Source of the DNA: Microcaldota archaeon
Lineage (GTDB): Archaea > Micrarchaeota > Micrarchaeia > Micrarchaeales > Micrarchaeaceae
Assembly: GCA_021810105.1 (NCBI GenBank)
Contig: JAJZJM010000004.1
Span: forward strand, 1 to 64,000
Reading direction: 5' to 3'
Length of the DNA: 64,000 bases
This document shows positions 781 to 20,995 of the stretch, piece after piece. Both the position numbers and the translations under genes were made by a program. Under the pieces are notes generated by a model, which was not told the DNA's origin, did not search any database, and saw only the letters and a list, made by a program, of their open reading frames with translations. Numbering within the stretch: the stretch's first letter is position 1; every line of letters begins with the position of its first letter.

Positions 781-2196
781 ATGGCAAAATCATACATAGA
801 TATAGTAAAATACATGGTTGAGGCAAGGTTTGAGATCTCAGGTTCTGTTGAAAAACCTGACATAATTGGAGCAATATTTGGGCAGACGGAAGGGCTTCTT
901 GGAGGAGACCTCGATCTTAGGGAGCTGCAGAAGAACGGAAAGATAGGAAGGATAGAGATAGACAGCTCAACATCGGGAAACAAGACATTCGGAAAGGTAT
1001 TCCTGCCGTCCTCACTGCCAAGGGTGGAAACGTGCATCCTGGCTGCTGCTATAGAGTCTGTAGACCGTGTCGGACCTTTCGAGACGAACATGAAGGTAAT
1101 GAAGATAGAGGATACAAGAAGCGAGAAGAGAAAAAAGATAATAACCAGGGCAAAAGAGCTGGTAAAAAACCTGCTTACAACAGAAATACCTGACAGCAGG
1201 GAGATAAGCGACCTTGTAGAGGCTGATGTGAAATCAAGCACTGTTGGCACGTATGGCCCAGAAAGTCTGCCTGCAGGTCCTGACATAGACAAAGACGAAG
1301 AGGTAATATTGGTAGAAGGGAGGGCGGACGTGATAAACCTCCTTAGGAATGACATAGCCAACTGCATAGCTGTTGGCGGAGCTGCCGGTACTATACCAAA
1401 GACGATAATAAGCCTGTGCTCAGCAAAGGAGGCCACCCTTTTTGTGGATGGGGACAGGGGAGGGGAGATGATTGTAAAGAATATAACCAGCATGGCGGAC
1501 ATAGACTTTGTAGCAAAAGCCCCTGACGGAAAAGAGGTTGAAGAGCTGACCAGGAAAGAGATAATAAAATCTCTCAGGGCCAGGGTTCCAATCGAGCAGG
1601 TCTTGGCTATGAACAGGCAGAGGCAGGATAGGTTCGAAGCATCGCACAACAGGCATATGCAGCAGAGGTTCCCGCAGAGGCCCCAGCCCGGTGAGCAGGC
1701 AAGGGAAATACTCAGCCCTTCACAGATAACCACAAACCTTCAAAAAGAAAGGCAAGGCGGAATGGATGATGAGCAGCATCAGCCAGAGCGCGAATTTTCA
1801 GGCTCTCGCGCTGGCTTGGGAATAAAAGACATGAATGGCATACAGGACGAAAACGAAGGTATGGATGCAATACCCAGCATAGAAATGCCGTCTGGCGAAG
1901 CCATGCATAGTGATGAAAATAAAAGATATACAGAATCGCTCTCAGAGTTGCACAACACATTAAGAGGAAGGTTATACTCGCAAGATGGCTCAATACTGGA
2001 AGAAGTTCCCATAAGGGAGCTGATACAGAGAGTACAAGCCGTGCCTGGTGTATCAGTAGTAGTTTTTGACGGTATAATAACCCAGAGGCTTGTAGATATA
2101 GCGCACGCCAAAGGGGTGAAAGAGCTCTACGGAATAAAAGCAAGCCAGGTTACAAGAAAGTATCCGGATATGGAGATACGCACGTCAGAAAAATAG
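781..2196 (+). CDS. dnaG: Archaeal DnaG primase
   Basis: Archaeal DnaG is a Toprim-fold protein linked both to primer synthesis and to the archaeal exosome. The N-terminal block EKPDIIGAIFGQTEGLLG and the RELQKNGKIGRIE motif are diagnostic. The Toprim domain follows, with VILVEGRADV near residue 175 and the acidic FVDGDRGG near residue 220. A low-complexity Gln/Arg/Pro-rich linker (about 280-385) leads to the C-terminal domain with VPGVSVVVFDGIITQRLVDIA. At 471 residues the length is normal for the family. The ATG at 781 is preceded by GGTGC, and the family block starts about 20 residues in. It stands alone, not in an obvious operon. Confidence 0.96.
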   Translation: MAKSYIDIVKYMVEARFEISGSVEKPDIIGAIFGQTEGLLGGDLDLRELQKNGKIGRIEIDSSTSGNKTFGKVFLPSSLPRVETCILAAAIESVDRVGPFETNMKVMKIEDTRSEKRKKIITRAKELVKNLLTTEIPDSREISDLVEADVKSSTVGTYGPESLPAGPDIDKDEEVILVEGRADVINLLRNDIANCIAVGGAAGTIPKTIISLCSAKEATLFVDGDRGGEMIVKNITSMADIDFVAKAPDGKEVEELTRKEIIKSLRARVPIEQVLAMNRQRQDRFEASHNRHMQQRFPQRPQPGEQAREILSPSQITTNLQKERQGGMDDEQHQPEREFSGSRAGLGIKDMNGIQDENEGMDAIPSIEMPSGEAMHSDENKRYTESLSELHNTLRGRLYSQDGSILEEVPIRELIQRVQAVPGVSVVVFDGIITQRLVDIAHAKGVKELYGIKASQVTRKYPDMEIRTSEK

Positions 2197-2210
2197 GCAT
2201 AAGAGCGGCT

Positions 2211-2266
2211 GTACAAGGAACCCTGGCGGACTTCCATCAAATATTGCGCGCCAGCTTGAATTGTAC
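2211..2266 (+). other. Nested stem-loop downstream of dnaG
   Basis: GTACAA (2211-2216) can pair with TTGTAC (2261-2266), and inside it CTGGCG (2223-2228) with CGCCAG (2249-2254). It lies between the dnaG stop and the padR promoter. It could be part of the dnaG 3' UTR or a small structured RNA; no poly-T run follows directly. Pairing is seen, function is not known. Confidence 0.3.
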
Positions 2267-2301
2267 GCGGCTGCCATTTGGTAAAAAACCCTTTACAAAG
2301 C

Positions 2302-2350
2302 CTTTTTATATATTAGTGTAGTTTAAATTTAAAATAGTTTAATTTAAATC
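2302..2350 (+). promoter_or_regulatory. padR promoter with imperfect palindrome
   Basis: A TATA-like TTTTTATATATT (about 2303-2313) is followed at 2321-2350 by GTTTAAATTT and AATTTAAATC halves that form an imperfect 30-bp dyad around the expected start of transcription. PadR proteins commonly bind such AT-rich dyads in their own promoters, so this is a candidate operator for autoregulation of the exporter operon. Binding is inferred. Confidence 0.4.
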
Positions 2351-2379
2351 GTGTTTTGTTGCAAGATTCGCATGACTTT

Positions 2380-2700
2380 ATGACCAAGGAAATGAGGCGC
2401 ACGATATTGAAGATTAGGATACTCATGAGCATAAAGAAAAAGAAAACATATGCGTATGCGATACTGAAAGAGTTCGGATCTGGAAGTTTTGCAAATTTCA
2501 TAGGCGGACAAATAAAAAATGATATATACAATTCCCTGTCGGCGCTAGAGAAATCGGGATACATCAAGCACTCTGTAAAAGTTACTCGCAACGGAGTGAA
2601 AAAATACTACAGCATAACCGCCAAGGGGATGAAAACCTCGAAGAACCTGAAGAAAGCTTTCAAGGAATCTATTGGGTATGCTATGAAAATGCTCAGGTAG
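2380..2700 (+). CDS. PadR-family transcriptional regulator
   Basis: A 106-residue winged-helix protein. Seen: MRRTILKIRILMSI helix, TYAYAILKEF, IYNSLSALEKSGYIKHSVKVTR recognition helix and wing, and KKYYSITAKG, the standard PadR signature (YxxLxxLexxGlI...YxlTxxG). The ATG at 2380 is preferred over the upstream TTG at 2356, because the family homology begins just after it. The stop is 4 nt before the ABC ATPase, so it is the first gene of an exporter operon and probably represses it until a toxic ligand is bound. Confidence 0.85.
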   Translation: MTKEMRRTILKIRILMSIKKKKTYAYAILKEFGSGSFANFIGGQIKNDIYNSLSALEKSGYIKHSVKVTRNGVKKYYSITAKGMKTSKNLKKAFKESIGYAMKMLR

Positions 2701-2704
2701 TGAA

Positions 2705-3697
2705 ATGCCAGACATAATAAAAATAGAAAATTTAGTCAAGAGGTTTGGCAGCCTTACAGCTGTAAATGACATCAATCTAAACATAAAGGAGGGCGAGATA
2801 TTCGGGCTTCTGGGGCCAAACGGCGCAGGCAAGAGTACAACCCTTAATATACTCCTAGGGCTTTTGGCTCCCACATCCGGAAAGGTTATGGTTAATGGCG
2901 TAGACATGCATAAGGATCCGCATGCGGCAAGAGAGGAAATAGGCATAGTGACTCAGGAGACTGTTGTAGAAGCGGAGCTTACAGCCGAGCAGAACCTGAT
3001 GATATTCGGCAGGCTTTATCACATACCTCCCGAGGAGCTGCAGAAAGATATAGATTTTGCTCTAGATTTGGCAGCGTTAACCAATTTCAGGAATGCATAC
3101 GCAGGAACATTCTCGGGTGGGATGAAGCGAAGGCTGGAAGTATCAAAGGCGCTTATGCATGCACCTAAACTAATCCTTCTTGACGAGCCCACAACCGGAC
3201 TGGACGTCCAGAACAGGACGCAGATTTGGAATCTTCTTAGGGAAATAAACAAAAAACAGAACGTAACCATACTTATGACAACGCAGTATCTTGAAGAAGC
3301 GGATCAGCTATGTAATAGAATAGGGATAATAGACCACGGAAAACTAATTGCGCTTGGCACACCAAGCGAACTCAGGCAAAAAATTGGCATGAGCAATATA
3401 ATAGAAGTGTCTGCCAATAAAGACAACCTTCAGAAAGTTGCAGCAGCATTCAAGAGCATCGGGCTAAATCCCACCACACTAAGCAACAAGGTAACCGCAG
3501 CTGGCGGAAGCTCAGCAACAAAGAAGATAGAGCTGCTAATAAAAGAGATTTCGTCCAAAAAAATTGAGATCCAAAACATAAGCATGCACGAACCTACGAT
3601 AGACGATGTATTCTTAAAGCTCACAGGCTCTCAAGTAAGGGATGAATCAGGGGCATTTACCGGAGGCAGAGGTTCAATGATGGGAAGGGGGAGATGA
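2705..3697 (+). CDS. ABC exporter ATPase (DrrA/ABC-2 type)
   Basis: ATP-hydrolysing subunit of an ABC-2 export system. The 330-residue protein shows Walker A GPNGAGKST (about 40), Q-loop TQE, signature FSGGMKRRLE, Walker B LILLDEPTTGLD, the D-loop and the switch region MTTQYLEEADQLC. The C-terminal extension with HEPTIDDVFLKLTG is typical of the daunorubicin-resistance/multidrug ATPase group. Its last codons overlap the permease start (ATGA), implying translational coupling. The substrate cannot be told from sequence; lipid, drug or polysaccharide are all possible. Confidence 0.93.
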   Translation: MPDIIKIENLVKRFGSLTAVNDINLNIKEGEIFGLLGPNGAGKSTTLNILLGLLAPTSGKVMVNGVDMHKDPHAAREEIGIVTQETVVEAELTAEQNLMIFGRLYHIPPEELQKDIDFALDLAALTNFRNAYAGTFSGGMKRRLEVSKALMHAPKLILLDEPTTGLDVQNRTQIWNLLREINKKQNVTILMTTQYLEEADQLCNRIGIIDHGKLIALGTPSELRQKIGMSNIIEVSANKDNLQKVAAAFKSIGLNPTTLSNKVTAAGGSSATKKIELLIKEISSKKIEIQNISMHEPTIDDVFLKLTGSQVRDESGAFTGGRGSMMGRGR

Positions 3698-4827
3698 AAA
3701 TGGGTTTGATTGGAGACGCATACACTCTTTTGCTTAGGGAGATGCTGATATTCAAGAAGAATCTTGGCGTTAACATAATCAGGTCATTGATATTTCCTCT
3801 AATTTTCATAATTCTTTTAGGAAGTTTTGGCAGCACGCCAAAGAACGTTCCAGTAGCAATCGTTAATTATAACAATGGACCCAGCGCGCTAAAATTCATA
3901 AATACTCTGGAATCTGGCGGCAGTATAGTTGTTGTATCCTCAACTACGCAAGCCGCTGCCCTCAATCTTCTTTCGCTGGGCAAAGTAGCAGGCGTTATTG
4001 TGATACCCTCTGTGTTCTCAAGCGGAACCGCATCTACGATTTACGTCTATCTGGACAACTCGCAGCCGCAGTCTGCAGAAGTGGTAAGCAGCCAAGTGTC
4101 GCTAGTGGCTTCAGAAGTTGGCTCTTCCACTTCAGTATCAGGCATCTCCCAAACAGATCCTCCAGGCCTGATAAAAGTAATCAGCAATTATGTATACGGA
4201 GCAAGCAGCAACTACCTGAGCTTTGTAGTGGGCGGGCTTCTTGTTATGGTGGCATCTTTCGGAGCTGTCTTTAGCTCAGGGTTCACCCTTCTTAGCGACA
4301 GGGAAATGGGCAACCTCAAGGCATTCTTGACAACTCCTATAAACAAATTCGCTATCCTGCTCAGCAAAATAGGATATGGCACATTCCAGTCCTTCCTTTC
4401 CGCCTTTATAGGGTTGATCATCGGAATACTCTACGGCGCAACAGTTGACGCCGGAATAGTGGGGTTCTTCGAGCTTATATGGATTATTTTCTTAGTGGGC
4501 CTTGGGTTCAGTGCTCTAGCGATAGCACTAGCAACAAGAATGAAGCAGCTCCAAACTTATGCTTTGGTGGCTCAGACTCTGGTCATGCCGCTCGCATTCC
4601 TCGGCGGCGCATTTGTTCCAGTAACGCTGCTGCCAAGTTTCTTGGTGCCGATTTCTGCCATAAACCCTCTAACATACGCTGTAAATGCTGTAAGGGATGT
4701 GATGATAAAGGGATTCCTCCCGCTATCTACACTGATCTCTACGTCTTTGATATTGATGGCTTTCGCAGGGGCATGCATGGTATTATCATTTGTCTTATTC
4801 AGAAATACTAGCACACAGCTTTCATAA
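3694..4827 (+). CDS. ABC-2 type permease
   Basis: Membrane partner of the preceding ATPase. There is one N-terminal membrane segment (about 22-42, IIRSLIFPLIFIILLGSF), a large extracytoplasmic domain of about 150 residues rich in Ser/Thr/Val, then five membrane segments from about residue 175 on. The motifs LLSDREMGNLKAFLTTP and AINPLTYAVNAVRD match the ABC-2 permease family. The start overlaps the ATPase stop by 4 nt. The following gene encodes an anchored surface protein 3 nt after the stop, so the four genes from padR form one unit. Confidence 0.92.
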   Translation: MKMGLIGDAYTLLLREMLIFKKNLGVNIIRSLIFPLIFIILLGSFGSTPKNVPVAIVNYNNGPSALKFINTLESGGSIVVVSSTTQAAALNLLSLGKVAGVIVIPSVFSSGTASTIYVYLDNSQPQSAEVVSSQVSLVASEVGSSTSVSGISQTDPPGLIKVISNYVYGASSNYLSFVVGGLLVMVASFGAVFSSGFTLLSDREMGNLKAFLTTPINKFAILLSKIGYGTFQSFLSAFIGLIIGILYGATVDAGIVGFFELIWIIFLVGLGFSALAIALATRMKQLQTYALVAQTLVMPLAFLGGAFVPVTLLPSFLVPISAINPLTYAVNAVRDVMIKGFLPLSTLISTSLILMAFAGACMVLSFVLFRNTSTQLS

Positions 4828-12119: not shown

Positions 12120-12458
12120 ATGGTGATATTTACGCCCAGGAAAAATATAAAAAAAGAGAAATTAGAAAATGCTCTAAACAAATTACAAAAGGTCTACGAT
12201 AAGGCGCCCAGGTATCCAAGGCCGGATATGCCGTGGGACGATAGCTACAAAGCTATGCTGAAGGCTAAGATAAAGAAATTGAAGCTAGAATTGATAGAGG
12301 CCAGCAAAAGAATTCACCTAGATGGGTTCTACATTAGGAAGCTAGGCGACGCAACTGTCGCGCTTGTGGGTTTTCCGAATGCGGGTAAATCGTCACTGAT
12401 TAATGCAATAGCTAGCACCAAATCAAAATCTGCTCAGTATGCTTTTCATAAGAACTAA
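12120..12458 (+). pseudogene. DRG/COG1163-type GTPase, truncated after the P-loop
   Basis: The N-terminal 109 residues fit the DRG-like GTPases: a charged helical region (LKAKIKKLKLELIEASKRI), then KLGDATVALVGFPNAGKSSL with the P-loop GFPNAGKSS and the segment SKSAQYAF, which in intact proteins is followed at once by the switch I sequence TTL. Here the homology ends at base 12446 and three foreign codons lead to a stop. G2 to G5 and the TGS domain are absent. The downstream sequence is an antisense LanC-like gene, so the break coincides with the edge of the AT-rich island. The rest of the GTPase is not in the window. Confidence 0.85.
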
Positions 12459-13068
12459 GATGGTCATTTTTTATATAAAAATAAAATTTCTTATTTCCAT
12501 CTCCACATAAATTTACGAAAGTCCTTAAAATAGTTTCAAGTGCGTATCTTACTCTTTTTGTTTTGTTTTTATATAACAAATAAGCTCCAACACCACTCAT
12601 ACCATTAATTATATCATATGATGATCTAGATATCCCATCTTTTTGAGTGTTTAGTGTTTCTGAAAATTTCACTGTTTTTGTAAGCAATAAATCATCAAAA
12701 GTTTTAATTAGGTTATTGTATCTAGTAAAATTTCTCGATAAAAACACTGCTGACATAGCTATTCCGCTTAAGCCACTAAATAAACCAATGTCTAACTCCT
12801 TTTCTTTTTCTAAGCTATTTACTGTTATCTCTAAGCATTTTTTCCCTAACACATCCCACTTTTCATCGGGAAAAATAATATCGAAATACGAACAGGCAAG
12901 CGCTATCCCTGCATAACCGTCAGCAATATTATAATTAACTTGATTATTCCCTATAAAATTCGAATCTAATTCTATGCGATTATAAATCATTTTTTTACTA
13001 ATTTTTATAATATTGTTAATTTCCTTCATATGGTTGTTTGGAATTTTTAATGGTTCCCAATTAGACAT
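12412..13068 (-). pseudogene. LanC-like cyclase, C-terminal half missing
   Basis: LanC proteins are alpha/alpha-barrel zinc enzymes that add Cys thiols to dehydroamino acids in lanthipeptides. The 218 residues show the repeated barrel motifs YAGIALACSYFD, LFSGLSGIAMSAVFLS and YDIINGMSGVGAYLLYK. The active-site part with the AHG motif and the Cys, Cys-His zinc ligands normally follows, but the frame runs into the remnant GTPase at 12447/12446 and ends there, its last residues being antisense GTPase sequence. It probably lacks catalytic activity. It follows the S41 peptidase by 4 nt in the same operon. Confidence 0.8.
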
Positions 13069-13072
13069 TGCA

Positions 13073-14248
13073 TCAACGACTATTTAAATAATATATGGCC
13101 TTTTGTAATATTACATCTTTATTCATTTTAATGTCCTCTATGCTCGGGCAAACTTCTATATCGGGCTTTATACCTCTACCCTCAAACCGGGATCCATCAG
13201 GAAACTTTACAAGGACTGAACCTATCGCTATTGATATACCATTTGGAAATGTACATATATACGGATCGCCGTCTGTTCCTGCGGTTTTTGTGCCGAATAT
13301 GGTGGCTCTTTTATTGTCTTTGAACGAAAATAGAAAATCTTCGGCAGCTGAAACTGTCCCCTCATTAACAAGTATTGCTAAATTGCCATTATACGCATTT
13401 TTATAAGGATCTTTATATTCTGATGGATAATTTACAATGCCGTAGGTTTTTTTCTTATTCCTGCCATACATTATACTTAGCGACGTTTTCGGTTTAATTA
13501 TACAATAATTAAATCTCCTGTATTTTTTATTCATTAATAATTTTAATAACCATAATGGGGTAGCTCCGCCGTCATTATTCCTAATATCTATTATAATATT
13601 TTTGTATCTGATGTGTTTCTTTATATATTTAAAAGCTGTTTTTGCATAAATGCCTGAACTAAAACTCGGAATTTTTATATAAACTATCTTATCATCTATA
13701 ATTTTTAATAACGGTTTTAAATCTGGCTTATCTAAGAACCTTTTAACACGTATAACTTCTCCGCTATCTAATCCTATCTTAGTACCGGTTAATAAAAACG
13801 GGGTAAGAAAAAGTTTATTCCTAGCTTCTCTCTCGCTTGAAGCATTTATATATATAGTTTTTCCTTTAAAAAATTTTTCTGCAGTAGTTCCATTTACATT
13901 TTGTATTGCGCGCCCAATTTTAACATTTTCACGCGAACTCGAATCTATAATCCATTTCCTCTCATAGTCGTGATAGAATACATGGAACCTTAAAGAATTG
14001 CCATAAATCTTATAAAGCCACGGATCAAAATACCAACTATGCCCATTCTTTAGCTCGCTTATGAATTCCATCATTACTAATCCAAACAAGTACCTATCTT
14101 TTGTTTCTGTTACTCTTTTAATGTATCTCTTATATAATTTTTCCAGATTAAAATTTTTGATGCTCTCTCTATGGGCAAAATAATTGTCTATAGATTGTAA
14201 TGTCTTATAGAAGATTAAAAGCCTAGTATATAAATTTAGGGTAGACAC
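13073..14248 (-). CDS. S41-family serine peptidase
   Basis: C-terminal-processing-peptidase-like protein of 391 residues. The N-terminal 100 residues are helical, with GHSWYFDPW recalling the tricorn/CtpA pre-protease region. The catalytic part shows NIIIDIRNNDGG (family IDLRxNxGG), NEGTVSAAEDF with the nucleophile Ser, and FGTKTAGTDG with the general-base Lys, then GRGIKPDIEV. No signal peptide is visible, so it probably acts in the cytoplasm. The GTG start is the first in frame. It pairs with the LanC-like gene, so leader or tail trimming of a peptide is a reasonable guess. Codon use is AT-rich, unlike the core genes. Confidence 0.85.
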   Translation of the reverse strand: MSTLNLYTRLLIFYKTLQSIDNYFAHRESIKNFNLEKLYKRYIKRVTETKDRYLFGLVMMEFISELKNGHSWYFDPWLYKIYGNSLRFHVFYHDYERKWIIDSSSRENVKIGRAIQNVNGTTAEKFFKGKTIYINASSEREARNKLFLTPFLLTGTKIGLDSGEVIRVKRFLDKPDLKPLLKIIDDKIVYIKIPSFSSGIYAKTAFKYIKKHIRYKNIIIDIRNNDGGATPLWLLKLLMNKKYRRFNYCIIKPKTSLSIMYGRNKKKTYGIVNYPSEYKDPYKNAYNGNLAILVNEGTVSAAEDFLFSFKDNKRATIFGTKTAGTDGDPYICTFPNGISIAIGSVLVKFPDGSRFEGRGIKPDIEVCPSIEDIKMNKDVILQKAIYYLNSR

Positions 14249-14318
14249 GCAATCATTGTATAATTAATTGATATTATCTTATTGCTTTATTAGTATAATA
14301 TTTATTAGATACTATCTT

Positions 14319-15290
14319 TAGGCTTTGTAGAAATCCTCTATTCTGACTTATAACCGAGGGATTTTAACCCCTCGGTTCATTTTGATTTTGGCGATCAAAA
14401 TGACTAGAGAACCTATCTATCGAAAATTTATAGATGTATGCCTGAAAGTCGGGAAAAGGTACCTCCGATCTTATTCGAGTAAATATTCGAAGAAGACGTA
14501 TACCCAGCCGCAGTTAACTGCTGCTGTCTGTTTGATGAAAAGGGAGCGTAAAACATACAGGGATATCGTCGATTTACTGCCAGAACTCGGAAAATACTTT
14601 TCATTTGGCAAATCGATACCGCATTGGACAACTTTACAGAAGTTCCTGAAACGGATTCCACTCGGGATTTGGGACCTGATTCTTGTCGGAACGTACAAAC
14701 TATTCTGCGCAAGAAATGTGAACACCGCAATAGACGGAACAGGTTTTGACGAACTCCACGCATCGCATTATTACGAAAAAAGAGTCGGAAGAGACATCAA
14801 CAAACGGCGTTTCATGAAACATTCAATATTTGTTGATACAGATTTCCAGGCGATAATCTCATCATGTGGCAAGGAATCAGGCCCACATGACACACTCGAC
14901 TTCAAACCGCTGATAAAATTCGGCAGTAGATTTGTAAAAATCAAAACCGTCACCGCAGACAAGGGATATGATTCTGAGGAAAACCATAGGTTTGCAAGGG
15001 AGGAGATCGGTGCCGAGTCGATAATACCGGCGAGAAACGATAATTCCGTGTGGAGAATGCGTGGTCACTATAGGAAGAAGATGAGAAGGGACTTCCCCCT
15101 AAAGAAATACCATCAAAGGTCAAAAGTCGAGACAATAAATGCCGTTGAAAAGAGGAAATTCGGACAAGATCCCAGGAGTACAAAATTTGAAATGAGGCAA
15201 AAGGAGTTGAAACTCATCGACATCGTTTATAATGTCTACAGGTTCAACAACAAATTTTATTTGTTGTTCATAGGATTTCTACAAAGCCTA
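14319..15290 (+). mobile_element. DDE insertion sequence (IS5/IS4-like), about 0.97 kb
   Basis: Perfect 17-bp terminal inverted repeats GGCTTTGTAGAAATCCT (14321-14337 and its complement 15272-15288), each flanked by TA on the outside. TATCTTTA stands on both sides (14313-14320 and 15289-15296), so the target duplication is either 8 bp, or TCTT if the TA belongs to the ends. One transposase gene fills it. The element sits between the S41 operon and the radical SAM operon, which were about 0.45 kb apart before insertion. Intact repeats indicate a recent insertion. Confidence 0.9.
14352..14377 (+). other. Stem-loop ahead of the transposase start
   Basis: AACCGAGGG (14352-14360) pairs perfectly with CCCTCGGTT (14369-14377) over an 8-nt loop. 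It lies between the left inverted repeat and the transposase ATG. Insertion sequences often carry such a structure to damp translation from transcripts entering from outside; that role is inferred. Confidence 0.5.
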
Positions 15291-15398
15291 TCTTTAATAT
15301 CTAACGACTCTTATCAAAGCTTTAAAACTTGTAGTACAATCCTGGAGCGGTGTCCTACGGTGCCGGGATCGAATCTCTCGCACTACTGTCAAGCTTAA
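14400..15398 (+). CDS. IS5/IS4-like DDE transposase
   Basis: The 332-residue protein has an N-terminal helical DNA-binding part (about 1-100) and a DDE core: Asp in NTAIDGTGFD, Asp in TADKGYDSEEN and Glu in KVETINAVEKRKFG. ATG 14400 is chosen over the upstream TTG at 14382. The C-terminal YNVYRFNNKFYLLF reaches the right inverted repeat, and the frame has no stop inside the element: it runs through the repeat and adds about 35 residues encoded by flanking DNA before TAA at 15396-15398. The frame is otherwise undamaged, so it is probably active. Confidence 0.85.
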   Translation: MTREPIYRKFIDVCLKVGKRYLRSYSSKYSKKTYTQPQLTAAVCLMKRERKTYRDIVDLLPELGKYFSFGKSIPHWTTLQKFLKRIPLGIWDLILVGTYKLFCARNVNTAIDGTGFDELHASHYYEKRVGRDINKRRFMKHSIFVDTDFQAIISSCGKESGPHDTLDFKPLIKFGSRFVKIKTVTADKGYDSEENHRFAREEIGAESIIPARNDNSVWRMRGHYRKKMRRDFPLKKYHQRSKVETINAVEKRKFGQDPRSTKFEMRQKELKLIDIVYNVYRFNNKFYLLFIGFLQSLSLISNDSYQSFKTCSTILERCPTVPGSNLSHYCQA

Positions 15399-15529
15399 AA
15401 ACGATTTTGAAAAGACGCACAAGCTTGCTAAGAATACCCGAGTCATATGAATCGGTAAAAAGCGCGCTACTAAAGGTTTCCAAGACTCATTCCTTTTATC
15501 AGAATGCGATCGCCGAACTTCGCGGCTAA
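15350..15529 (+). CDS. Hypothetical short frame, possible gene remnant
   Basis: A GTG-initiated frame of 59 codons reads SYGAGIESLALLSSLKTILK and ends YQNAIAELRG. It looks coding by composition (balanced residues, two helices likely) and is less AT-rich than the surrounding island. No family is recognised and no ribosome-binding site is clear. It may be the end of a gene whose front was lost. It overlaps the tail of the transposase frame in another phase, and its last codons contain the 13-nt match to the tRNA-Gly 3' end. Confidence 0.3.
   Translation: MSYGAGIESLALLSSLKTILKRRTSLLRIPESYESVKSALLKVSKTHSFYQNAIAELRG
15503..15515. repeat. 13-nt match to the tRNA-Gly 3' end (att-like)
   Basis: AATGCGATCGCCG occurs here and at 20994-21006, where it is the discriminator and acceptor end of the tRNA-Gly gene plus two bases outside. 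The two copies are in the same orientation and bracket the small-peptide/radical SAM operon (about 5.5 kb). tRNA 3' ends are usual integration sites, so this could be the distal attachment site. Thirteen bases is short for a firm call and no integrase gene is present between them. Confidence 0.3.
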
Positions 15530-15707
15530 AGCATATTCCGCTACCGATATACAACGCTATACAATTATCTTATATCTGATATTACGATATAGCTTAGCAG
15601 TTATATAAGCTTTAAATCCGAAAGAATGATACGCATTAGGAGTTATAGCAATCTGATTGCTATATTGCCTAAATATGTTGACAGTGAATAATTACTTAGG
15701 AGAGAAG

Positions 15708-15815
15708 ATGATCGGCCTTGTATTGTGGGTTGTGACTTTCCTAATGCTTGGGCTTGCTGCACAATCTTTTCAGGATGGGTTATTCATGACTTTTGTCCCA
15801 AAGTCGAATCCTAAG
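15708..15815 (+). CDS. Small membrane peptide (35 aa)
   Basis: An ATG at 15708, preceded at good spacing by TAGGAGAG, opens a frame MIGLVLWVVTFLMLGLAAQS with one hydrophobic helix and a short polar tail containing one Cys (DFCPKVES). An in-frame ATG at 15675 would add 11 residues. It lies just upstream of the candidate precursor peptide on the same strand. It could be an export, immunity or second precursor peptide; nothing more can be said. The region 15530-15674 shows only AT-rich sequence. Confidence 0.4.
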
Positions 15816-15858
15816 AAAGTTATAAATAATAGTTAGCATAATAAGAAAATGTGATTAG

Positions 15859-15984
15859 ATGGGACTACATATAAAAAAGGAAGCAAAGGAGGAAATGGAC
15901 ACCGATATAATATTAGAGACGGCTACAGTAGACCCTAAATTTTATGCATTCCTAAAAAAGGGTGGGCACTGCTGCATGGGCTGA
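15859..15984 (+). CDS. Candidate RiPP precursor peptide (41 aa, ...KKGGHCCMG)
   Basis: A short frame directly upstream of two radical SAM genes. The N-terminal 34 residues look like a leader: charged at first (HIKKEAKEEMDTD), then ILETATVDPKFYAFL. The C-terminus is KKGGHCCMG, with adjacent Cys residues after a Gly-Gly pair, a typical leader/core border. A TATA-like TTATAAATA (15821-15829) precedes the ATG by about 30 nt and GTGATT lies just before it. Thr residues at about 21 and 23 and Cys at 38 and 39 are the obvious sites for modification. Leader, core and chemistry are inferred from context; the frame itself is plain. Confidence 0.65.
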   Translation: MGLHIKKEAKEEMDTDIILETATVDPKFYAFLKKGGHCCMG

Positions 15985-16051
15985 AGCTGACACCTTTATT
16001 ATATTTTTAGGGAGGCAAAGTTAGTGTATACTATCAAAGCGGTGTTCTAAG

Positions 16052-17170
16052 ATGAAAGTTACACGTCTTGAAAATATTGGCATACTAGTTAACGATGACT
16101 CTGTCTTAGGTAGCTACTTTTTAGCGAAAAAGATTCCACCCAATTGTAAGGTAATTGATAATAGAACTGATAACAAGAAAAGACTAAACGCTCCAATATA
16201 CTTAGATATATACCCATCATTTTTATGTAATTTCAGATGCTCTTTCTGTTATTTAAAACTTTTAGGAATAAATTTAACAGATTCTAAACAGATGTCAAAT
16301 GAAACTATAAATGCCACTATAAAGATGTGTGAAGACCATGGCATAAGCACAATAAATATATTAGGTGGAGAACCCTTACATCCACTTACTTGGTCTACTA
16401 CGCGCAAACTTATCGAAAGAGCACATGAAAAGGGAATTGGGGCTGATGTAACAACAAATGGTTCCTTTTTAACTGAAGAAATTGTTAGCTTTATGAATAA
16501 GAATCAGACAAAATTGAATTTGTCACTTCATAGCCTGCAGTCTAATAATAGCAAAGAAATATTAGGATTGGATGTGTCACAAAGATTAAGAGATATCATA
16601 CTTAATGTCGTAGATGGAAAAATTAACTATGGTTTAACCACTGCCATACTAAAAACAAATATTAATGAGATTGAGCAATTAATAAGCTTTGTCAATACTC
16701 TCTCAACCTGTGGCGCTTGGGTCTGGAGATATGTTACAGTATTTGGGAATTTTGACAAATCCACACTTTACTCTGCCAGGGAATTTTTTGAATTATACAA
16801 GAAATACAAGAGTCAGATAAAAAAGAATGTTTATTTTGATGGACCATTCAGTTACAAGTACTTAAATATTAAGCCATTAGAGACAGAGTTTGATGCGGTG
16901 CTATCTCCATGTTGTAATCCAGGCGAATCAAAAGCAGAGACCCTGCCGGATGGAACTGTCTATTCCTGTATCCTTTTTTATGGCGACAACAACCAAGTAA
17001 TGGGCAATGTATCTACAGGAATCAATTTTACCAAAAGCTATGGTTATAAAAAAGTTTCATGTAGCAATTCTTTATGTAGTTACAACAAGTACTGCACTGG
17101 TTGTACCGCTTATGCAAATAGAACAGGTATAAAATTTGATGATCGCTGTGAGTACACACAAAAAACATAA
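16052..17170 (+). CDS. Radical SAM protein with Cys-rich SPASM-like tail
   Basis: A 372-residue enzyme expected to make a 5'-deoxyadenosyl radical and act on a peptide. The canonical cluster motif is CNFRCSFCY (CxxxCxxC) near residue 60, followed by NILGGEPLHP, the Gly-rich SAM-binding GGE motif. After the partial TIM barrel the C-terminal 90 residues are Cys-rich: SPCCNPG, the PDGTVYSC strand, then CSNSLCSYNKYCTGC and a last Cys at DDRCEY. This matches SPASM or twitch auxiliary-cluster domains of peptide-modifying members. An N-terminal 50-residue segment could contact the leader. It begins 67 nt after the candidate precursor, with which it probably shares a transcript. Confidence 0.88.
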   Translation: MKVTRLENIGILVNDDSVLGSYFLAKKIPPNCKVIDNRTDNKKRLNAPIYLDIYPSFLCNFRCSFCYLKLLGINLTDSKQMSNETINATIKMCEDHGISTINILGGEPLHPLTWSTTRKLIERAHEKGIGADVTTNGSFLTEEIVSFMNKNQTKLNLSLHSLQSNNSKEILGLDVSQRLRDIILNVVDGKINYGLTTAILKTNINEIEQLISFVNTLSTCGAWVWRYVTVFGNFDKSTLYSAREFFELYKKYKSQIKKNVYFDGPFSYKYLNIKPLETEFDAVLSPCCNPGESKAETLPDGTVYSCILFYGDNNQVMGNVSTGINFTKSYGYKKVSCSNSLCSYNKYCTGCTAYANRTGIKFDDRCEYTQKT

Positions 17171-17507
17171 AAACCAAAACTTTATTAGACTGAAAGGTGT
17201 AATAGCATTTCCAAGAGATACTTCAGGGGAAGCGTTTATCTTGCAAGGTTCTAATAAAAAAAAGTTTAAAGACAAATTTATACTTATTGCAGAAGCCACA
17301 TATCCGGAATATTTACCAATAATGCTTAAGTCAAGTGGTATAGTTACTGAAGTAGGCGGTATATTGTCACATGCAGCAATAGTAGCGCGCGAATTTAGTA
17401 TACCCTGTGTTGTAGGAGTAAAAGGTGCAACAAGTAAAATAAAGGAGGGGGATCAGGTTATTATAAGAAAAAATGGTGTTGTACTTGTTAAACACAAGCG
17501 AGAATGA
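17136..17507 (+). CDS. Stand-alone phosphohistidine (PEP-utilising mobile) domain
   Basis: The roughly 115-residue protein is the swivelling His domain found in pyruvate phosphate dikinase, PEP synthase and rifampin phosphotransferase. It shows ILIAEATYPEYLP, then the signature GGILSHAAIVAREFSIPCVVG with the phospho-accepting His, and GDQVIIRKNGVV. It lacks any ATP-grasp or PEP-binding part; the ATP-grasp half is a separate gene at 19573. It overlaps the end of the first radical SAM gene and the start of the second by about 35 nt each. ATG 17136 or 17139, or GTG 17148, could start it. Partner exchange between the split halves is inferred. Confidence 0.85.
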   Translation: MMIAVSTHKKHKNQNFIRLKGVIAFPRDTSGEAFILQGSNKKKFKDKFILIAEATYPEYLPIMLKSSGIVTEVGGILSHAAIVAREFSIPCVVGVKGATSKIKEGDQVIIRKNGVVLVKHKRE

Positions 17508-19572
17508 TGTAAGCTATCTAATTAAAGACAAAATGATGCAGAGAGGCTTTCGTTACTTATACAAAAATTCTGATGAATTTCGATTAGAAATCATGGATTT
17601 AAAGAAAAATATTTCTCTACTTACAAATGAGGTATTAACAGAAGAAGTGCTAGAAAAGGTCAGCCAATTTGTTGATAATAGAATAGAAAACTATTTAAAG
17701 GAATTGAGGGACGAGGATGAATATATTGCAAAGACTGTCAACAAAATAAAGATTGCGGATGCTGAAGTAGCCCTTTCTGAATTATACTTCAAATCTCAAA
17801 TATACTTTTTGTATAATGAAGTATTCACATATGGCGCAATGGACTTGATCCTTAGAAAGCAGATAACAAAAAACAAATTAGACGTAGAAAAGACTTTGCT
17901 TGGACTATCTAATTATAAAGGCACCGCAGTACACACAGTATACAAGATGCTTACAGGATTTCAAATTCCCAATACAAAACTTGAATTTATCAAATTGCAA
18001 AAAAGAGACGCGAAATTTAGGAAAGCTATTGGTACACTTAGTACTAATATCGCGGATTATTTTGAAGAAAAACCAACACTAAACGAAATATACTATATGA
18101 TTAAGGCAGCGAGTGAACATGCAAATTCGGTTAATACAGAAACAAGTCTCCCAGATATAGGAAAACCTCTAATCCAACTTTATGTCTTTATTGTTAATAC
18201 TCAGAGGAAATTATTTATATCCCAAAATATATATATAAATGCAACAAAAAAAATATTTAAGAAATTCCCAAAATTGGACAAAGTATATGGCGGTCAAAAA
18301 CCTAAAGGTCCTTTGCTAGATTTGTATCTAGATAAAATAAAGGAATTAAAAGGACATAAGCTACTACAGCCAAATATATACTATAATGGCTTCGTATTCA
18401 ACCTTGATGAACGGAAACATACTCGCTTATCTGATAGGGGCAGTAAGATCATAGAAGCAATTATCAATAAAAAAGTTGCTGATGGTATATCAATACTAGA
18501 TGCCGGTAACATAGTTAAAAAATTAAACGACGAAGGCATAATTGAGAAGGATGTACAAAAACCAAAAAAGCCAAGTTCCTATATTTTTATGCTGGAACTG
18601 GCTTTAGGCTGCAATCTTAACTGCACAATATGTTTTAATAGAGGTTTTAAGCGCCAAAGGATAGTTACAGTAGATGAGTGGTGTAAGATAATATACTCGA
18701 TTCCAAAAGGGTCACAAATAATCCTCTTTGGAGGTGAACCATTTTTTTATCCATGGGTAGGCAAGATAATAGATTATATACAAGAAACCAACAAAAAGGA
18801 AGAAAGGCATTGGAAAGTAGAGGCATTTACTAACGGCGTACTTACAAATAAAATACTAGATAGCTTAAAAGGAAAAGAAAGGTTAAAATTGATATTTAGT
18901 ATAGATGGTCTTCAAGATGCCCATGACACCATAAGAGGCAAAGGTGCATTTAACCATGCTATAGAGACCATAAAACGGTTAAAAACCGAGACATTACATG
19001 AGATAGAGGTAAGGAGTGTAGTTACAGCAAAAAATTATAACTCTGTAAAGGAGTTTATAAATTTTTTCAAGCGTCTTGGTGTAGATGAAATAACATTTAC
19101 CGATCTGCATGTAACTGGCAATGCAAAAAAACATTTAGATTATGTTTTAACTCCAGATCAGAGACTAAACGTATTGCATTGGCTTGGTAATTACAAAGAT
19201 TCCATATTGACAAATGGCTATTCTGATTCTGAGATATACCCAAATAGTTGTGGAATAGGTTTCAATAGAATATATATAAGGAGTGATGGCTTAGTTAATG
19301 GCTGTTCAGAATTAGATGTCTCTGAATATAATATATCCAATGCCAAACTTAATAAAAAAGGTGTACTTGAAAATCCTAGAAACCTAATACCCAAGTTTGA
19401 GAGAGATGAATTTAACAGTTCTGACTCTGATTGTGCCAAATGCGGTTTATTATATTTATGTGGTGGTGGTTGCAGATCTCGTGCACTAAAGCAAACAGGA
19501 AATATCAACAGTTGTGATGTAGTACAAAAGGAAGACATAATTAGAGTATTAAATAAAATTAAGGGTAATTAA
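17473..19572 (+). CDS. Large radical SAM-SPASM protein with N-terminal extension
   Basis: A 699-residue protein. Residues 1 to about 300 are helical and match no family I know. About 305-355 (NLDERKHTRLSDRGSKIIEA and the helix after it, to LNDEGIIE) resembles a PqqD/RRE winged-helix leader-binding module. The radical SAM core starts with CNLNCTICF (about 379), then FGGEPFFYP and FSIDGLQDAHD. The SPASM tail has CGIGFNRIYIRSDGLVNGC and CAKCGLLYLCGGGC, the usual CxxCxxxxxC pattern. Such architecture is typical of enzymes that modify ribosomal peptides. The 300-residue front might hold the substrate site that the split dikinase lacks; that is speculative. Confidence 0.85.
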   Translation: MVLYLLNTSENDVSYLIKDKMMQRGFRYLYKNSDEFRLEIMDLKKNISLLTNEVLTEEVLEKVSQFVDNRIENYLKELRDEDEYIAKTVNKIKIADAEVALSELYFKSQIYFLYNEVFTYGAMDLILRKQITKNKLDVEKTLLGLSNYKGTAVHTVYKMLTGFQIPNTKLEFIKLQKRDAKFRKAIGTLSTNIADYFEEKPTLNEIYYMIKAASEHANSVNTETSLPDIGKPLIQLYVFIVNTQRKLFISQNIYINATKKIFKKFPKLDKVYGGQKPKGPLLDLYLDKIKELKGHKLLQPNIYYNGFVFNLDERKHTRLSDRGSKIIEAIINKKVADGISILDAGNIVKKLNDEGIIEKDVQKPKKPSSYIFMLELALGCNLNCTICFNRGFKRQRIVTVDEWCKIIYSIPKGSQIILFGGEPFFYPWVGKIIDYIQETNKKEERHWKVEAFTNGVLTNKILDSLKGKERLKLIFSIDGLQDAHDTIRGKGAFNHAIETIKRLKTETLHEIEVRSVVTAKNYNSVKEFINFFKRLGVDEITFTDLHVTGNAKKHLDYVLTPDQRLNVLHWLGNYKDSILTNGYSDSEIYPNSCGIGFNRIYIRSDGLVNGCSELDVSEYNISNAKLNKKGVLENPRNLIPKFERDEFNSSDSDCAKCGLLYLCGGGCRSRALKQTGNINSCDVVQKEDIIRVLNKIKGN

Positions 19573-20319
19573 TTGAGAGATATAGTTCTTCAAACAGAGA
19601 GCAGTTCTAGGAGAATTGTTGGTGGAAAAGCATTTTCTCTTTTAGTACTAAATAAAGCAGGGTTCAATATCCCTCCTTTTTTTATTCTTACCACCAAAAC
19701 TACGCAGTATCTAAAAAATCGGGATGTACATAAAAAGTTTCTTTTAGAAATTAAAAATACATACAAAACTGCCATAAAAAACGGCAAGGTGGCTGTACGT
19801 AGTTCTACCACCATAGAAGATTCACGGAAATCAAGCTTTGCAGGCCAATTTAAAACCGTGTTAAACGTTGATATAAATAATGTATATGGAGCAATTGAAG
19901 AGGTTTATTTATCTATACCCAAGGTTGTAGCTGCTTATGGACCGAGAATTAAACATGGTGCTAAGATTGAAATGGCAATAATAATACAAAAAATGGTAAA
20001 CCCCGATAAAGCAGGAGTTATATTTACAGCAGACCCTATAAACGGCAATAAAAGCAAGATAATAATAGAGGTTGTAAAAGGACTAGGCGAAGCTTTAGTT
20101 TCAGGATCAAAAACACCAACTAAATATTATATTTCTAAAACGCATAGCAATATATTGAATCGCAGCGGTAAAAACCTAATCCTCCTTGGAGAATTGAAAC
20201 AGTTATGCGATATAGCTATATCAATAGAAAAACTATTTGACTATCCCCAAGACATAGAATTTGCAATAAAAAAAGGCAAAATATATATATTACAAAGCAG
20301 AGATATAACCACATTATAA
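19573..20319 (+). CDS. Stand-alone dikinase ATP-grasp domain (PPDK-N type)
   Basis: A 248-residue protein equal to the N-terminal nucleotide-binding domain of PEP synthase, pyruvate phosphate dikinase and rifampin phosphotransferase: VGGKAFSLLVLNKAGFNIPP, VAVRSSTTIEDS and SFAGQFKT (the basic ATP-binding strand), IIIQKMVNPDKAGVIFTADP, EVVKGLGEALVSG and the terminal DIEFAIKKGKIYILQSRDIT with Glu/Gln/Arg ligands. Nothing follows the QSRDIT end, where the full enzymes continue into the His domain. TTG starts directly after the stop of the radical SAM gene. With the His domain at 17136 it makes one enzyme in two chains, whose likely job is to pass a phosphate from ATP to a substrate made or bound by this operon. 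Confidence 0.87.
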   Translation: MRDIVLQTESSSRRIVGGKAFSLLVLNKAGFNIPPFFILTTKTTQYLKNRDVHKKFLLEIKNTYKTAIKNGKVAVRSSTTIEDSRKSSFAGQFKTVLNVDINNVYGAIEEVYLSIPKVVAAYGPRIKHGAKIEMAIIIQKMVNPDKAGVIFTADPINGNKSKIIIEVVKGLGEALVSGSKTPTKYYISKTHSNILNRSGKNLILLGELKQLCDIAISIEKLFDYPQDIEFAIKKGKIYILQSRDITTL

Positions 20320-20895
20320 TTTATCAAGCACATATTTCCTTTTAAGTATTCTTAATGCACTGCTAAACGATAGCTTCCAATAAATAGGCCCTATCAATTG
20401 ATAAAATTCATGCATTATTTTTAATTTGTGATTTCTGTAAAAAGACAGCATTCCTTTCTTTGTTTTCAATATTCTCCACTCGACTATAAAATTGCTAACC
20501 CCTTGTGTTCTGTTAAATGACTTATATGTTCTTTCCAATGTTATATTATCTCCTATTATTGAAGTTAAGAAGAAATCAAATGCGACTATCTCACTAGGCA
20601 TCCAAAATTCACAGACTAATTTGCCACGAACACTTTCTGCTATGGCTGCTATAGCTCTTACCCAATTTATAGGTTCACCCCATATATCAGGATATCGTAT
20701 AATGCATAGGTCATACTTTTCTTTAGTCATTTTGTAATTTTCTATCCAGAAAAATTGTTTAGATATATGTAAATTTTTGAATTTTGTTGTATTTACTTTT
20801 GTAAGCGGACCATAAGCATCTACTCTATCAAATTGCTCCATCTCTTTGTTCAAATCTTTGGCATCTTCAAATGCCAAAAGCAAGCATTTTTTCAT
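20314..20895 (-). CDS. Hypothetical protein, possibly methyltransferase-like
   Basis: 193 residues from the ATG at 20895 (an upstream start at 20925 would add ten). The middle section YDLCIIRYPDIW, then NWVRAIAAIAESVRGKLVCEFW and ITLERTYKSFNR resembles the second half of a class I Rossmann methyltransferase (the strand ending in RxP and the following helix and strand), but no GxGxG SAM loop is visible. The C-terminal 60 residues are basic and hydrophobic (SFYRNHKLKIMHEF, LRILKRKYVL). It converges on the ATP-grasp gene with a 6-nt overlap. The family is uncertain. Confidence 0.6.
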   Translation of the reverse strand: MKKCLLLAFEDAKDLNKEMEQFDRVDAYGPLTKVNTTKFKNLHISKQFFWIENYKMTKEKYDLCIIRYPDIWGEPINWVRAIAAIAESVRGKLVCEFWMPSEIVAFDFFLTSIIGDNITLERTYKSFNRTQGVSNFIVEWRILKTKKGMLSFYRNHKLKIMHEFYQLIGPIYWKLSFSSALRILKRKYVLDKL

Positions 20896-20995
20896 AAGAA
20901 CATACTCGGTAAATATGTATAACATGCATTTGACAATATTTAAGTCTTTAGGGAAGAGGAAGAGAACTGAACATGCCTTCGTCGTAAAGCATAAA

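Follow-up and report, generated by a model that had tools for sequence, protein, structure and literature searches.

A candidate RiPP precursor with a vicinal-cysteine tail beside radical SAM and split dikinase-type genes in a micrarchaeal genome

The closest described relatives of the locus analyzed here are the radical SAM/SPASM RiPP systems, represented by the sactipeptide and ranthipeptide maturases SkfB, CteB and PapB and by SuiB, and the mycofactocin system (MftA, MftB, and MftC), in which a short precursor is modified at its C-terminal tail. A further related group is the PEP synthase/rifampin phosphotransferase family, which carries an ATP-grasp domain and a phospho-histidine swivel domain. 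The genomes of Micrarchaeota are tiny, and few biosynthetic pathways have been recognised in them. In a 2025 survey, radical SAM RiPPs were predicted across archaea and RiPP clusters were reported, but not characterised, in DPANN (PMC12144867). In the open-access literature we found no paper that combines Micrarchaeota, radical SAM and RiPP, none that combines radical SAM and RiPP with a PEP-utilizing or rifampin phosphotransferase, and no precedent for a dikinase in a described RiPP pathway.

We analyzed a stretch of 64,000 nucleotides (the window) from contig JAJZJM010000004.1 of a Microcaldota archaeon, whose assembly (GCA_021810105.1) comprises 821 kb in five contigs and is about 94% complete. 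In this stretch a frame of 41 amino acids is followed by the genes of a radical SAM protein (rSAM1), a PEP-utiliser swivel protein, a second radical SAM protein (rSAM2) and a PPDK_N-type ATP-grasp protein (Table 1). Each of the four enzyme genes overlaps or directly adjoins the next, as expected of a single operon. Translation of the 41-aa frame gives MGLHIKKEAKEEMDTDIILETATVDPKFYAFLKKGGHCCMG, with the final residues KKGGHCCMG. The first-pass annotation had described a frame that ends in HCCMG after a double glycine and is accompanied by radical SAM genes; reading the sequence gives exactly this frame, and the radical SAM genes lie downstream of it. With moderate confidence, we take the 41-aa frame to be the precursor of a radical SAM RiPP, made by a pathway that includes a split dikinase-type phosphotransferase.

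Table 1. Positions in the window of the cassette genes, the predicted promoter element and the features to their left.
Feature	Position	Strand	Remarks
Truncated GTPase	12120-12458	+	left of cassette
Truncated LanC	12412-13068	-	left of cassette
S41 peptidase	13073-14248	-	left of cassette
IS5 transposase	14382-15398		left of cassette
TATA-like box (TTATAAATA)	15820-15828	+	purine-rich AGAAAG before it; score 7.2
Candidate precursor peptide, 41 aa	15859-15984	+	ATG to TGA; C-terminal GGHCCMG; coding score rank 1/211
rSAM1, 372 aa, SPASM-like cysteines	16052-17170	+	Pfam PF04055 E 1.4e-14
PEP-utiliser swivel (phospho-histidine) protein, 123 aa	17136-17507	+	PF00391 E 4.7e-25; overlaps both neighbours
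rSAM2, 699 aa	17473-19572	+	PF04055 E 1.6e-17; full SPASM motif
PPDK_N-type ATP-grasp protein, 248 aa	19573-20319	+	PF01326 E 7.9e-50
Convergent gene, 203 aa (193 aa from second Met)	20314-20925	-	same place in G181

Frames of at least 30 residues are so common here (136 overlap the surrounding 18 kb stretch) that the length of the 41-aa frame is by itself no evidence, and the frame has no match among the models of Pfam, NCBIfam and PHROGs. Codon usage was scored with a model trained on the long genes of the window, with the frame itself left out. It ranks first among the 211 ATG frames of 30–80 aa, with 0.243 per codon where real genes give 0.02–0.21; as the score reflects amino-acid composition in part, it supports the frame as a gene and does not prove it. 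The frame is also the only one, out of 526 window frames of 25–100 aa, with CC in its last eight residues and GG in its last 15, a motif that was picked only after the frame had been seen. A short precursor-type gene with a coding signal adjoins a maturase gene, 67 nt 5′ of rSAM1, and is presumed to encode its substrate. Directly 5′ of the frame lies AGAAAGTTATAAATA, with a TATA-like core at the usual distance, 31–39 nt before the ATG (-39 to -31), and a nearly leaderless transcript of the frame is therefore predicted. The box scores among the higher values of the window's genes, a score equalled by about 4% of random island windows, and no TATA match ahead of rSAM1 scores as high. Judged by these signals, the predicted promoter is positioned for the 41-aa frame, not for rSAM1, and the frame looks like a real gene. 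A separate frame of 53 aa (15675-15836), which encodes a single hydrophobic segment, has its end overlying the TATA-like box. The best hit to it elsewhere (E 3.9e-4) spans 23 residues of a frame that is interrupted by a stop.

Two other explanations bear directly on this evidence. The frame may be no gene at all but a stretch left open by chance within the operon's promoter region, next to an insertion element, as would suit the commonness of chance frames of this length, the lack of a homologue and a rearranged neighborhood with IS5 and truncated genes. Such a stretch would, however, have to rank first of 211 in coding score, to lie behind a promoter that fits it rather than rSAM1, and to carry an ending with CC and GG that no other short frame of the window has, and we consider this decidedly unlikely. 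Alternatively, a short frame directly ahead of an operon could encode a regulatory leader peptide that acts in attenuation of rSAM1. Against this, the RNA between the frame and rSAM1 is less stable than its shuffles (z +1.44) and the only Rfam match nearby is a tRNA, so that a leader peptide appears extremely improbable.

Both radical SAM proteins contain a CxxxCxxC motif and cysteine sets of the SPASM type; neither is matched by the SPASM model of Pfam. The nearest solved structures are those of SuiB (5v1q) and CteB (5wgg), then others such as MoaA, for rSAM1, and those of SkfB and CteB for rSAM2. NCBIfam models of peptide maturases and of cofactor enzymes match broadly, all with scores far under their cut-offs; among the named classes (ranthipeptide, sactipeptide, SCIFF, and Clo7bot) no maturase model exceeds its curated cut-off, with PapB at 79 against 340 bits. 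Based on the cysteine sets and the structural relatives, a peptide-maturase character of both rSAM1 and rSAM2 is supported. PADLOC viperin models also match the two proteins (E 1.1e-21). We rejected viperin on the NCBIfam model, which gives 66 bits against a cut-off of 180, and the SPASM-type cysteines also speak against it.

In rSAM2, a helical N-terminus (residues about 1–295) is followed by a probable RRE (about 300–370) and then by the radical SAM/SPASM domain. The segment 300–370 matches no Pfam model; it has the position of an RRE, directly before the catalytic domain, and the predicted topology of one. In a Foldseek search of this segment against 350,542 chains, TbiB1–leader complexes came first and CteB and a lasso B1 protein were among the top 20, with no E below 0.4 and a query model of pLDDT 53. 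An AlphaFold2 model of the whole rSAM2 (pLDDT 35) was used only as a hint of secondary structure. A relation between the helical N-terminus and the helical domain of the D. radiodurans split dikinase was also considered and rejected, with no likeness by BLASTP or hhalign.

Like the described radical SAM/SPASM RiPP systems, the locus has a short precursor candidate beside radical SAM/SPASM enzymes, one of them with a probable RRE, has cysteines in the presumed core, and finds its best sequence matches among solved structures in these systems. It differs from them in that its operon includes a split dikinase, its presumed core has only about five residues, and all named NCBIfam models stay far below cut-off. 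With mycofactocin it shares the short precursor with a C-terminal tail that is, here presumably, modified, and rSAM2 matches the MftC model with E 5.9e-21; the scores, however, are 75 bits for rSAM2 and 40 for rSAM1 against a cut-off of 265, and no other mycofactocin gene is recognised in the cassette. The end of MftA also differs from HCCMG. The earlier proposal of a RiPP precursor next to radical SAM genes is supported by position, coding signal, promoter and the character of the two enzymes. The thioether or metal chemistry that it attached to the HCCMG tail would be a conceivable further step.

The swivel protein retains GGILSHAAIVARE and the ATP-grasp protein retains VRSSTTIED, GLGE and QDIEF, and both proteins are conserved in the two related genomes described below. 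Since these motifs are intact, phosphate transfer from ATP to the swivel histidine by this pair is plausible. The same two domains are found in the PEP synthase/rifampin phosphotransferase family. Here, in contrast, they are encoded by two separate genes around a radical SAM gene, the ATP-grasp protein lacks any PEP/pyruvate domain and no third domain is recognisable, and we do not place the pair within that family. A full-length PEP synthase-like gene is found elsewhere in the source genome. Other split dikinases are found on the D. radiodurans plasmid CP1 and in Haladaptatus, where the annotation shows no radical SAM gene in the vicinity. Provided that the 41-aa frame is indeed the precursor, the system is radical SAM RiPP-like and is distinguished by its association with a split dikinase.

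A possible pathway can be suggested in which an operon of RiPP type, spread by horizontal transfer, would begin with the 41-aa frame as its precursor gene. The RRE of rSAM2 would bind the charged leader of the peptide, and rSAM1 and rSAM2 would modify its short C-terminal tail, in which the His, the two Cys and the Met are the obvious targets. The ATP-grasp protein would transfer phosphate from ATP to the histidine of the swivel protein for delivery, and in this way the split dikinase may phosphorylate or activate the peptide or its product. Finally, an unlinked protease would free the modified tail. The frame, its coding signal, the order of the genes, the intact catalytic motifs and the purifying selection on the enzymes are observed; we infer the role of the peptide as substrate of the cassette enzymes, as well as the reactions, the acceptor of the phosphate and the form of the mature product. 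The cassette contains neither a protease nor an exporter gene. For C39 peptidases (PF03412) the genome, about 94% complete, gave one sub-threshold match on another contig (19.2 against 22 bits); cleavage after Gly-Gly by such a peptidase is not supported, and as none exceeds the cut-off, release of the tail would need an unlinked protease.

The HCCMG end can also be explained by a 41-aa protein that acts unmodified, with this end as a metal-binding tail. Mercuric reductase has a vicinal-cysteine tail of comparable layout, and a free C-terminus in which vicinal Cys are accompanied by His and Met, as well as the strong coding signal, would fit such a protein. Yet the frame heads a peptide-modification operon, and no metal transport or resistance gene is found among the cassette genes, which makes an unmodified metal binder unlikely. 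If the RiPP reading is true, radical SAM maturases paired with a separate phosphotransferase, working from ATP to histidine to substrate, would widen the known RiPP chemistry and would give a handle on products of Micrarchaeota, whether these serve as cofactors inside the cell, bind metal or act as signals. More tentatively, and with low confidence, we suggest that the cassette may stand for a class of radical SAM products of DPANN archaea that is new, be they peptides or cofactors derived from a peptide. Two SPASM-type enzymes would remodel a vicinal-Cys tail of about five residues, and the split dikinase-type phosphotransferase would phosphorylate or activate it.

The region from about 12440 to 20925 has a GC content of 29–37%, except for the IS5 transposase, and most of the flanking sequence has roughly 40–46%. 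Judging from this and from the genes to its left, the cassette region looks like a rearranged, horizontally acquired stretch. The truncated GTPase and the truncated LanC genes, which point toward each other, meet at about 12412-12458, in what looks like a recombination junction or an assembly join, and a full-length relative of the GTPase is found elsewhere in the source genome (G000:C3:267065-267331). LanC and the S41 peptidase (12412-14248) were considered as parts of the same pathway and rejected for now, based on their opposite direction, the IS5 transposase in between and the truncation of LanC; the genomes with related cassettes, G181 and G065, gave no LanC. On the right side, the convergent gene belongs to no family in Pfam, NCBIfam or PHROGs.

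This setting raises the question of whether the operon makes a RiPP from, or modifies, another substrate that is encoded elsewhere, with the small frame being incidental or accessory. Radical SAM RiPP enzymes sometimes work on unlinked precursors, and genes may have been moved away by the insertion element that lies upstream. On the other hand, the 41-aa frame sits at the usual position of a precursor and the cassettes hold no other candidate, none of their frames being a convincing rival with a Cys-containing tail. We regard a substrate encoded elsewhere as very unlikely and keep to the 41-aa frame as the candidate precursor.

rSAM2 was found in three of the 301 Micrarchaeota genomes searched, namely the source genome, G181 and G065. 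G181 keeps the order of rSAM1, swivel, rSAM2, ATP-grasp and convergent genes, with 65–77% identity. Compared with the source cassette its dN is 0.14–0.22 and its dS 0.95–2.1, and dN so far below dS indicates purifying selection on the cassette enzymes; the convergent gene shows 73% identity with dN 0.18 and dS 2.1. The first base of the G181 contig falls within rSAM1. G065 has lost most of rSAM1, and stops interrupt both the remnant and rSAM2; its swivel and ATP-grasp genes keep intact frames, and the decayed cassette is immediately preceded by tRNA genes. As the precursor segment is missing from both loci, its absence there speaks neither for nor against the precursor. In G181 and G065, too, the GC content of the cassette is below that of much of its surroundings. 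A protein search of the 301 genomes for homologues of the peptide gave nothing beyond chance-like matches; those that could be read lie in unrelated frames. In viral contigs neither a DNA pattern for KGGHCCMG nor rSAM1 or rSAM2 was found, and a scan of genome contigs for rSAM2 gave only KMA_Bin04, whose contig JAGDYB010000001.1 is evidently the same as that of G181.

Downstream of the decaying cassette in G065, a stretch of similarly low GC (G065:C32 10680-15887) holds genes that, by eye from their sequences, resemble a class II aminoacyl-tRNA synthetase, two methyltransferases and an S66 peptidase. Lanthipeptide systems in an archaeal survey were of class II only and confined to haloarchaea (PMC12144867). 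In another Micrarchaeota assembly, a short contig (G185:C14:1-5138) encodes a complete LanC (PF05147) and a full-length LanB-type dehydratase (PF04738, PF14028), at 15-1340 and 1439-4582. This pair would be class I lanthipeptide enzymes, with contamination being possible on a contig of such length. A further Micrarchaeote has a RiPP-like cluster (G052:C11 7316-12289) with three radical SAM genes, two of which match Pfam SPASM, a 118-aa protein without a family, and an arginase-family protein that, as a guess, might be a peptide arginase making ornithine.
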